Positions 1,234 through 4,944 of a stretch of DNA of 64,000 nucleotides are shown here, piece after piece; positions within the stretch are counted from its first letter, which is position 1; the number at the start of each line of letters is the position of its first letter. Location: positions 1 through 64,000 of the forward strand of contig CADCWO010000001.1 in the NCBI GenBank assembly GCA_902806435.1, in the 5' to 3' direction. The translations under genes were made by a program, and so were the position numbers. Below the pieces are notes generated by a model. The model worked only from the letters and a program-made list of their open reading frames with translations. It was not told where the DNA came from and made no database searches. The stretch is from an uncultured Synechococcales cyanobacterium. Lineage in GTDB: Bacteria > Cyanobacteriota > Cyanobacteriia > Thermosynechococcales > Thermosynechococcaceae.

Positions 1234-1905
1234 CTAGGTAACCGGCTGGTTTTTTAATAACTGCTGGCGAAGTCGTTCTGGGTTTCCTTGATCTACAACA
1301 CGCCCTTGCTCTAGTAAGAATGCGCCATCACAAAAGCTCAACTCCTCCAAACGATGGGTCACCCAAAGGGCTGTTAAACCCCGACTTTTTACCAAACGAC
1401 GAACATTGGCCACAAGTTCTCGTTGGCTGTCCGGGTCTAGTAAGGCTGTTGGCTCATCTAGGAGTAAAACTTGGCAGTGGCGAGCGATCGCTCCGGCAAT
1501 AGCAATCCGTTGTTTTTGCCCCCCACTCAGGGTGTAAATTGGCCGATTTTGAAGTGGCAAAAGATTAACCGCGCTCAAAGCTTCGGATACTCTCTGCCTC
1601 ACCTGAACTAAAGACAGGTGTTCTGATACCAGGCCAAAAGCAACATCAGCCCCAACCGTTGGCATCACTAGCTGATGGTCTGGGTTTTGAAAGACAAAGC
1701 CTACAGGCTGAATCAGTTCAACTTGCCCTGAGTGGGGAGTCAAAAGCCTAGCCAGTAAGCGCAGAAGCGTCGACTTGCCACTACCATTTGTACCCAGAAG
1801 CATCCAAAGTTCGCCTCTGGGTACCTCTAGGCAGCAACCGTCAAGAACTTTACCTCCTTTAGGCCAATTAAAATAGAGGTTTTGCACGTCGATTGCAATC
1901 GACAT
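1234..1905 (-). CDS. Energy-coupling factor (ECF/CbiO-type) ABC transporter ATPase
   Basis: A 223-residue ATPase with Walker A GTNGSGKST (38-46), the FQNPDHQL Q-loop characteristic of ECF ATPases (72-79), signature LSGGQ (126-130) and Walker B VLLLDE (146-151). In ECF importers such ATPases power uptake of vitamins or metal ions together with an EcfT scaffold and a substrate-binding S component at the inner face of the plasma membrane. No S component is next to it; the only EcfT-like gene in the window is about 27 kb away at 28457-29449. The UPF0367 gene lies directly upstream on the same strand with a 4 bp gap, so they are probably co-transcribed. The substrate cannot be told from sequence. 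Confidence 0.88.
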   Translation of the reverse strand: MSIAIDVQNLYFNWPKGGKVLDGCCLEVPRGELWMLLGTNGSGKSTLLRLLARLLTPHSGQVELIQPVGFVFQNPDHQLVMPTVGADVAFGLVSEHLSLVQVRQRVSEALSAVNLLPLQNRPIYTLSGGQKQRIAIAGAIARHCQVLLLDEPTALLDPDSQRELVANVRRLVKSRGLTALWVTHRLEELSFCDGAFLLEQGRVVDQGNPERLRQQLLKNQPVT

Positions 1906-1909
1906 CTAT

Positions 1910-2173
1910 TTAACTTAGCCCCAAAAACCCGCCCACTTTGCCAGAGGCAGCAGCACCAGATTTTTCAGAAAGTTGCATTGCCGCAATCTCACTACTAAGA
2001 ACGGCAATCTTCTTCTCTGGCTCGCGATCGCAGGTTAGCTCTAAAACCTGAGGACTTGTAGCACCCATCGCTTGCAATATCTTCTTATAGAGGGCTTCTG
2101 CTTCATCTGCGTCTTTGCGCTGGATGGATATACCTAAGGGGCTACCTTTAAGTGTTAAATCAATCGTACTCAT
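1910..2173 (-). CDS. UPF0367 family cyanobacterial protein
   Basis: An 87-residue protein starting MSTIDLTLKG, with ISIQRKDADEAEALY and VLELTCDREPEKKIAVL, the pattern of the UPF0367 family, which is widespread in cyanobacteria and has no established function. There is no signal peptide or membrane segment. The C-terminus is rich in small residues (GAAASGKVGGFLG). It shares a strand and a 4 bp spacing with the ECF ATPase downstream and is divergent from psbD, so the 322 bp gap to psbD holds promoters for both directions. Confidence 0.85.
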   Translation of the reverse strand: MSTIDLTLKGSPLGISIQRKDADEAEALYKKILQAMGATSPQVLELTCDREPEKKIAVLSSEIAAMQLSEKSGAAASGKVGGFLGLS

Positions 2174-2454: not shown

Positions 2455-2495
2455 GATAATACCGTTGTCCTTCTATCTTTTGGAGAAATCGCGTC

Positions 2496-3554
2496 ATGAC
2501 CATAGCAGTAGGACGCGCAGAGGCAGAAAGAGGGTGGTTCGACGCCCTCGATGACTGGCTCAAGCGTGATCGATTCGTGTTCATCGGCTGGTCTGGGCTG
2601 TTACTATTCCCCTGCGCCTACCTGGCAGTGGGAGGCTGGCTGACCGGCACCACCTTCATCACCTCCTGGTACACCCACGGGCTCGCTAGTTCCTACCTTG
2701 AAGGTGCCAACTTCCTGACCGTAGCTGTCTCCACTCCCGCCGACAGCATGGGCCACTCCCTGTTGTTCCTGTGGGGACCAGAAGCTCAGGGTGACTTCAC
2801 CCGCTGGTGCCAGTTAGGCGGACTGTGGGCCTTCCTGGCTCTCCATGGTGCCTTTGCCTTGATCGGCTTCATGCTGCGGCAGTTTGAAATTGCGCGTCTA
2901 GTTGGCTTACGGCCTTACAACGCCATCGCCTTCTCAGCCCCAATTGCCGTATTTGTTTCAGTGTTTCTGCTGTACCCCCTAGGCCAGTCAAGCTGGTTCT
3001 TCGCTCCGAGCTTTGGGGTAGCTGCGATCTTCCGCTTCTTGCTGTTTTTTCAAGGGTTCCACAACTGGACATTGAACCCCTTCCACATGATGGGAGTAGC
3101 GGGTGTCTTAGGTGGAGCGCTGCTGTGCGCCATTCACGGTGCGACAGTGGAGAACACCCTGTTTGAGGATGATGACCAATCCAACACCTTCCGCGCCTTC
3201 AACCCGACACAGGCAGAAGAGACCTACTCGATGGTGACGGCTAACCGCTTCTGGTCACAGATCTTTGGCGTTGCCTTCTCCAACAAGCGTTGGTTGCACT
3301 TCTTCATGCTGTTTGTGCCGGTGACTGGGTTGTGGATGAGTGCAGTGGGAGTTGTGGGTTTAGCTGTGAACCTGCGTTCCTATGACTTCATCTCCCAAGA
3401 GGTCAGAGCCGCGGAGGACCCAGAGTTTGAGACCTTCTACACCAAGAACATCCTGCTGAACGAGGGCATCCGTGCTTGGATGGCTCCTCAGGATCAGCCC
3501 CATGAACACTTTGTCTTCCCTGAAGAGGTATTACCACGTGGAAACGCCCTTTAA
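2496..3554 (+). CDS. psbD: Photosystem II reaction centre protein D2
   Basis: A 352-residue D2 protein of the usual length. It binds P680 chlorophyll, plastoquinone QA and the non-haem iron in the thylakoid membrane. Expected ligands are in register: His117, redox-active Tyr160 (TyrD), His189, His197, His214 and His268. The start [15 protein letters not shown] matches other D2 proteins and is preceded by GGAG 10 bases upstream. The 3' end overlaps psbC by 17 bp, the arrangement conserved in cyanobacteria and chloroplasts. Third codon positions are strongly C-rich (TTC, ACC, AAC, TAC), unlike psbC immediately downstream. Most cyanobacteria carry a second psbD elsewhere; none is in this window. 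Confidence 0.98.
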
Positions 3555-4944
3555 TTCATCAATGGCTGGTGCCCAAACAATTGAGGCTACTGGTGGTCGC
3601 AGCCTAGAGTCTACCGGGTTTGCTTGGTGGGCTGGAAATGCCCGTCTGATTGCCTTATCTGGCAAGCTAACTGGTGCTCACGTTGCCCATCAAGGTCTAA
3701 TTGTTTTCTGGGCAGGAGCAATGACTTTGTTTGAAGTTGCTCACTTTATCCCTGAAAAGCCCATGTATGAGCAGGGATTTATTCTGCTGCCGCACCTTGC
3801 CTCTCAAGGCTGGGGTGTTGGTGCGGGTGGTGAAGTTATCAGTACCTATCCCTACTTTGTTGTTGGGGTTTTGCACTTGATTTCTTCTGCTGTGCTGGGT
3901 CTGGGTGGAATTTATCACGCTGTTCGTGGCCCAGAAACCCTTGAAAATTACTCCGCTTTTTTTGGCTACGACTGGAAAGATAAAAACAAGATGACCACAA
4001 TCCTGGGGATTCACTTGACCCTCTTGGGACTTGGTGCTTTCCTGTTAGTTGCTAAAGCTATGTTCTTTGGCGGATTGTATGATACTTGGGCTCCTGGCGG
4101 TGGAGATGTTCGGGTGATTACCAACCCAACCCTTAATCCAGCCGTCATTTTTGGCTACTTACTTAGGTCTCCTTTTGGCGGGGAGGGTTGGATTGTTGGT
4201 GTTGACAACTTAGAAGATGTGGTTGGTGGCCATATCTGGGTTGGCCTTATCTGTATTTTCGGTGGTATTTTCCACATTCTCACAAAGCCTTTTGCTTGGG
4301 CGCGGCGGGCCTTCATCTACTCTGGTGAAGCCTATCTCTCCTATAGCGTTGGTGCTTTATCTTTGATGGCTTTTATTGCTACCTTCTACGTCTGGTTTAA
4401 CAACACTGTCTATCCCAGTGAATTTTATGGGCCTACTGGTCCTGAAGCTTCTCAGGCTCAAGCTCTTACTTTCTTAATCCGCGACCAGCGATTGGGAGCT
4501 AATGTTGGTTCCTCCCAAGGACCGACTGGCTTAGGTAAGTACTTGATGCGCTCTCCTACCGGAGAAATTATCTTTGGGGGCGAGACAATGCGGTTCTGGG
4601 ATTTCCGCGGACCTTGGTTAGAACCCCTACGTGGTCCGAACGGTTTGGACCTCAACAAAATCAAGAATGATATTCAGCCTTGGCAAGCACGTCGTGCCGC
4701 AGAGTATATGACCCACGCACCATTGGGTTCTATCAACTCTGTCGGTGGGGTGGCAACAGAGATTAACTCTTTCAACTATGTATCTCCTCGTGCTTGGTTA
4801 GCAGCTTCTCACTTTATCCTGGGCTTCTTTTTCTTGGTCGGGCACCTTTGGCATGCTGGCCGCGCCCGTGCTGCTGCAGCCGGTTTTGAAAAAGGTATTG
4901 ACCGTAAAACTGAAGCAGTTTTGTCTATGCCCAACCTTGACTAG
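3538..4944 (+). CDS. psbC: Photosystem II CP43 chlorophyll apoprotein
   Basis: CP43 core antenna, 468 residues from the GTG at 3538, the conserved cyanobacterial and plastid psbC start inside psbD. GAAGAGG lies about 12 bases upstream of this GTG. The large lumenal loop is present, including GGETMRFWD, whose Glu and Arg correspond to the Mn4Ca-cluster ligands Glu354 and Arg357. This and the [13 protein letters not shown] tail distinguish it from the iron-stress protein IsiA. The N-terminus before STGFAWW is several residues longer than in CP43 sequences I recall. Codon use is T-ending (GGT, GCT, TTT, ATT), in contrast to psbD. A strong terminator follows. Confidence 0.97.

Follow-up and report, generated by a model that had tools for sequence, protein, structure and literature searches.

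In the window, a stretch of 64,000 nucleotides from an uncultured Synechococcales cyanobacterium (GCA_902806435.1, contig CADCWO010000001.1, positions 1 to 64,000), psbD and psbC overlap and are translated from the same message, yet they appear to be written in different codons. The initial annotation placed an abrupt switch at the gene overlap and suggested two origins: conversion of psbD by a second copy, or acquisition of psbD by recombination, possibly from a cyanophage. Here, we ask how large the contrast is, where it begins, and whether it belongs to this locus or to psbD in general. Our reading, which we hold with a probability of about 0.72, combines three elements: two psbD genes that convert each other, a window misjoined between their loci, and a codon habit of psbD that is lineage-wide.

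Codon usage in psbD and psbC

The two genes differ as the initial annotation described. By calculation, psbD has a GC3 of 0.676, as compared with 0.440 for psbC (p 2.3e-11), and third-position C and T are found in ratios of 140:60 and 119:190, respectively (Fisher p 3.5e-12), corresponding to a C/(C+T) of 0.70 and 0.39. The fractions of individual codons follow this pattern, with TTC 0.68, TAC 0.88, AAC 1.00 and ACC 0.68 in psbD, and GGT 0.47, GCT 0.54, GTT 0.62, TCT 0.73 and TTT 0.59 in psbC. At four-fold sites, T occupies 35 of 183 positions in psbD (0.19) versus 125 of 252 in psbC (0.50; p 4e-11), the genome pool being at 0.26.

As a reference for both genes, we used 221 ORFs with 150 or more codons, taken from 358 kb of this genome; the set (GC3 mean 0.50, SD 0.066) leaves out the window psbD. 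The C/(C+T) of psbD exceeds that of all 221 ORFs, and its GC3, at the 99.5th percentile, exceeds all but one. The GC3 of psbC lies at the 19th percentile, but in two-codon families the gene is at the 81st percentile for C and is not T-rich for its genome. Taken together, the genome-wide percentiles and the four-fold T single out psbD for its C usage and psbC for preferring U-ending four-fold codons. For comparison, GC3 is 0.466 in psbB and 0.54–0.55 in psaA and psaB, genes that were assigned with the help of Pfam searches.

Position of the switch

The 17 bp overlap is present as first described, but a change in codon usage at that place is not supported. A two-segment model of third positions, fitted without the last five codons of psbD and the first five of psbC, places the best change point about 70 bp upstream of the psbC start (Table 1), with a 2-log-likelihood interval for GC3 of 3459–3528. 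For the C/T sites, the gain was 28.7, as compared with a maximum of 11.3 over 500 permutations. Relatives behave similarly: the 22 psbD codons ahead of the overlap region are C-poorer than the remaining psbD in 37 of 52 (p 5e-5), a sample made of 25 two-copy genomes and 27 named loci among the matches listed. The bias thus softens over the last 20-odd codons of psbD, perhaps as a result of overlapping duties, since these codons also bear the start signals of psbC, including its probable ribosome-binding site.

Table 1. Features of the psbD–psbC locus, in window coordinates
Feature	Position	Strand	Basis or remark
psbD (D2)	2496..3554	+	PF00124 E 1e-73; GC3 0.676; probably stands for two copies collapsed into one
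psbC (CP43), GTG start	3538..4944	+	PF00421 E 1.2e-132; GC3 0.440
psbD/psbC overlap, 17 bp including the psbD stop	3538..3554	+	C249 copy diverges from the window just past 3538
127 bp shared without mismatch with the first bases of C249 (tail of the stand-alone psbD2)	3412..3538	+	
Codon-usage switch, best interval (C/T sites), peak at 3471	3459..3483	+	change-point fit
AAGAGG within psbD, probable psbC ribosome-binding site	3523..3528	+	sequence
psbD leader, stand-alone type, without the operon-copy AGAGG	2470..2495	+	
87-aa gene, no Pfam match; adjoins stand-alone psbD2 in relatives	1910..2173	-	
ABC transporter ATPase (PF00005); adjoins stand-alone psbD2 in relatives	1234..1905	-	Pfam and synteny

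The label cbiO-like for the ABC transporter ATPase is our own. Within psbC, the minus strand at 3973–4159 matches the Rfam model of the IsrR antisense RNA with 177 bits; this candidate was set aside, as the match probably reflects the homology between psbC and isiA.

A second copy of psbD

The genome (4.79 Mb, 278 contigs, stated completeness of 99.98%) contains psbD at two loci. One whole copy lies on the contig of the window, C1, and the last 46 codons of psbD are repeated at the very start of C249, followed by genes of their own, for an Rrf2-family regulator and then a cysK-like protein. Identity between C249 and the window is complete over exactly 127 of 127 bases; at the psbC start codon, C249 diverges and ends psbD with the same final residues in different codons. 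The second copy postulated in the initial annotation is therefore found, as a 3′ end; its 5′ end was not found in the draft. Two types of psbD with their own neighbourhoods, conserved synteny and concerted evolution have been described in cyanobacteria (PMC6053082). Like most cyanobacteria, the present genome very probably has two psbD genes. The operon copy, psbD1, would overlap psbC, and the stand-alone psbD2 would sit between the ABC-ATPase gene and rrf2-cysK; the psbD2 flanks are on the left side of C1 and on C249, and each copy has its own neighbourhood, which some but not all relatives share.

Among 25 relatives with both copies, the median number of sites that differ between the two is 12 (range 1–108; at most 29 in 23 of the 25), and the GC3 values of the copies are within 0.02 of each other. 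No amino-acid difference was seen in the first 14 equal-length, near-identical pairs examined, and in the psbD tree the copies pair with one another in all 18 two-copy genomes included. Where the operon and stand-alone copies do differ in codons, the differences cluster in the last 44 codons (136 of 414, over the psbD pairs of the 25 genomes). In one further genome (G026, loci L136 and L137), two psbD genes with three differing sites are found, neither of which overlaps psbC, although psbC lies slightly downstream of one. The 127 bp identity, the few differences in relatives and the 18 tree pairings support conversion as a force that keeps the copies alike. Gene conversion would hold both coding regions near-identical, as is seen in relatives and, in the present genome, over the last 127 bp. 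As the cause of the contrast, the role first assigned to it, conversion falls short: alone, it does not account for the difference between psbD and psbC.

Probable misjoining of the two loci

The window probably joins the left flank and leader of psbD2 to the psbC of the operon inside a collapsed psbD. The assembler would have merged the psbD2 left flank, one psbD and the operon psbC, so that C249 opens with what remained of psbD2. The length of that tail is telling: 127 is a usual largest SPAdes word, and the end of C249 shares exactly one such word with the repeat, the expected remnant of a collapsed repeat.

The leader points the same way. AGAGG is present ahead of the operon psbD in 13 of 13 two-copy genomes and ahead of the stand-alone psbD in none of the 13, and the window psbD lacks it. 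Left out of this count are G006b and G019b, both additional loci that have diverged, and G026, whose pair is not of the operon type. Neighbouring genes are less uniform. Upstream of the operon psbD, ycf4 (PF02392) is found in 6 of 10 operon loci (G003, G033, G029, G027, G019, G031), and not in G009, G001, G006 and G013; at a contig end of G028, it is joined to the start of psbD. The stand-alone psbD is adjoined by the ABC-ATPase and 87-aa genes in G028, G033, G043 and G044, and followed by rrf2-cysK in G033 and G029 and by cysK in G043, but has other neighbours in G009, G001, G006, G027 and G019, so this synteny is not universal. Searches of the draft, each run without a parallel positive control, found no ycf4, no operon-type leader ahead of psbD, and nothing orthologous to the ketoacyl-synthase neighbour (42% for the closest hit).

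An alternative is that the order ABC-ATPase, psbD, psbC is real and arose in the cell by recombination between the two psbD copies. Whole psbD genes were present at 27 of the best 80 named psbC loci. At four of these, among the matches listed (L037, L055, L059, L060), the leader lacks AGAGG; the ABC-ATPase gene is present at three, and the join seen in the window recurs in the drafts L037, L055 and L059. However, the titles of all four mark them as drafts or MAGs, whereas the other 23 of the 27, among the matches listed, have both ycf4 and AGAGG; many of these are drafts too, and five (L079, L083, L090, L091, L105) are titled complete or nearly complete. The constancy of AGAGG in operon copies also speaks against a real order, as do broken psbD ends in this draft and in two others. 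One contig end of the draft G040 (L055) carries rrf2-cysK and a psbD tail, as in the present genome, and in G039 (L037) a contig end has ycf4 joined to the opening 127 bp of psbD, again with exactly 127 shared bases. The latter is not a clean case, since a diverged psbD-psbC pair is found on its C169 and, on its C153, an additional psbD preceded by a leader of the stand-alone type. In G041 (L059), no broken psbD end was seen, and in G042 the second psbD tail differs from its first. A real order is therefore improbable, and merging of the two copies by the assembler is, as judged from the contigs, well supported, short of proof.

The codon contrast is probably independent of the misjoin, because the copies are near-identical and agree in GC3 in the 25 relatives, from which the present genome is judged. 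Positions 1–115 of the window, where the contig begins, match the interior of C212 (100%) and C205 (88%) and stand beside transposase-like ORFs at 128–1124; this is probably another repeat, at which the contig ended.

Loss of psbD from drafts

In this draft, the D1/D2-family Pfam search matched the window psbD alone, which means that psbA, too, is absent. The absence of psbA and ycf4 is probably dropout around collapsed repeats. With a threshold of E 1e-60, psbD went unmatched in 12 of 31 genomes of the same class. Each of these 12 has at least 30 contigs, and all 15 genomes with at most 10 contigs have a match, which indicates that psbD is often lost from drafts. Neighbourhoods of psbD are unreliable in short-read cyanobacterial drafts. 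With near-identical copies, assemblers drop psbD or attach psbD2 flanks to psbC, and promoters or operon structures of psbD taken from such drafts could mislead.

The contrast across relatives

The contrast is a lineage-wide habit of both psbD copies, usually weaker in relatives than in the window. With kin genomes treated as independent, GC3 is higher in psbD than in psbC in 25 of 25 two-copy relatives (mean difference 0.077, largest 0.179) and in all 26 named operons among the matches listed (mean 0.083, largest 0.191). The two-copy pairs exclude G030, which has a run of N in its operon psbD, and G026, G046 and G094, in which no copy fits the operon rule. At four-fold sites, all 25 two-copy genomes and all 27 named loci among the matches listed have less T in psbD than in psbC, and psbD has more A in 21 of the 25 and in each of the 27, respectively; the 27th named locus is L055, whose gap fails the 120-base rule used for GC3. 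The GC3 difference of the window, 0.236, is the largest of the 52 (25 genomes, 26 named operons among the matches listed, and the window), whereas its four-fold T difference, -0.30, is ordinary. What makes the window extreme in GC3 is that T is replaced in its psbD by C and G rather than by A.

Compared with the genes around it, psbC has more four-fold T in all 7 genomes, while psbD has less in 5 of 8 and more in the other 3, which suggests that psbD lacks a T preference rather than avoiding T. Slower synonymous change in psbD was considered and discarded, as the mean four-fold distance is 0.58 in psbD and 0.57 in psbC, with psbD the lower in 125 of 300 genome pairs.

On whether the same contrast recurs in relatives without duplication, the four single-copy genomes on hand disagree. 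Their psbD-psbC differences in four-fold T are +0.09 (G035), 0.00 (G038), -0.08 (G023) and -0.29 (G081), the contrast being absent in two deep single-copy genomes. G081 (L273), a one-contig genome with a single psbD, is nested among two-copy genomes in the tree and may have lost psbD2 recently. Among diverged extra copies, psbD3-psbC2 of G006 differs by -0.04 in four-fold T, and the third psbD of G019 has a four-fold T of 0.23, below its converted copies at 0.36. We found no account of the psbD/psbC codon contrast in the open-access text searched. What began as a local oddity becomes a testable general statement on psbD.

Origin of the codon habit

Whereas psbC and psbA, and here psbB too, favour U-ending four-fold codons, psbD does not and uses C, G or A. 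The likeliest cause would be synonymous selection that is balanced differently on psbD, its effect reaching both copies through conversion. More tentatively, in two-copy cyanobacteria psbD may be under a conserved synonymous regime of its own, free of the U-ending four-fold preference of psbC and psbA until about 22 codons before its end; this regime may belong to the duplicated state, with conversion spreading it to psbD1. The inducible psbD2 is a possible seat of such a regime.

Turnover of D1 and D2 runs ahead of that of CP43, and psbD could accordingly be codon-adapted in the manner of psbA, since its product is made faster than CP43. In 15 genomes (G026, without a psbA ORF, and G028, without a psbC pair, are not among them), psbA exceeds psbC in GC3 in 12 and in C/(C+T) in 14. 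At four-fold sites, however, T is at 0.317 in psbA, 0.311 in psbC and 0.161 in psbD, and psbA is above psbD in 14 of the 15. Because psbA retains U-ending four-fold codons, psbD does not follow it; the proposal fits in part only and is unlikely.

GC-biased gene conversion between the copies, which would raise the GC3 of psbD, fares worse. It agrees with the GC3 excess in every two-copy relative and with the lower excess of the four single-copy genomes (Mann-Whitney p 0.008; n=25 vs 4, kinship uncorrected), but a weak-to-strong bias does not predict the raised four-fold A of psbD. Moreover, ACG, TCG and GGG/CGG in the window are not above the genome pool, and copy divergence is not significantly related to the contrast (Spearman -0.33, p 0.10). 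The rise in A leads us to reject it as a general cause, and it is highly doubtful here.

Acquisition of psbD, foreign codons included, from a cyanophage or another lineage can be practically dismissed: cyanophages do carry psbD, with 423 records matched, but these are 60–80% identical (75.6% at best), three phage genes have a GC3 of 0.40–0.44, in the opposite direction, and group with G023 away from the present genome, and separate trees, the one for psbD with 51 rows and the one for psbC with 30 (most deeper forks of the latter unresolved, and many indels in the G003 psbC), each pair the genome with G003 (100/99 and 100/98). The recurrence of the contrast in two-copy relatives likewise identifies it as a habit of psbD and not the mark of a phage gene.

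Comparison with known systems

The two-copy psbD system treated in PMC6053082 resembles the present one in its two types with separate neighbourhoods; its copies are near-identical within a genome, and here the tail of a second copy was found, equal to the window psbD over 127 of 127 bases. It differs in that the second psbD is represented here by a 127-bp tail alone, and its passages on the psbD copies do not mention the codon contrast with psbC. The cyanophage gene is a homologous D2 gene, but is set apart from the window psbD by an identity of at most 75.6%, its low GC3 and its place in the tree. The cyanobacterial psbA family is like psbD in being a multi-copy component of the photosystem II core, in its C-rich two-codon families and in its loss from this draft; the two part at the four-fold sites, where psbA retains its U-ending codons.
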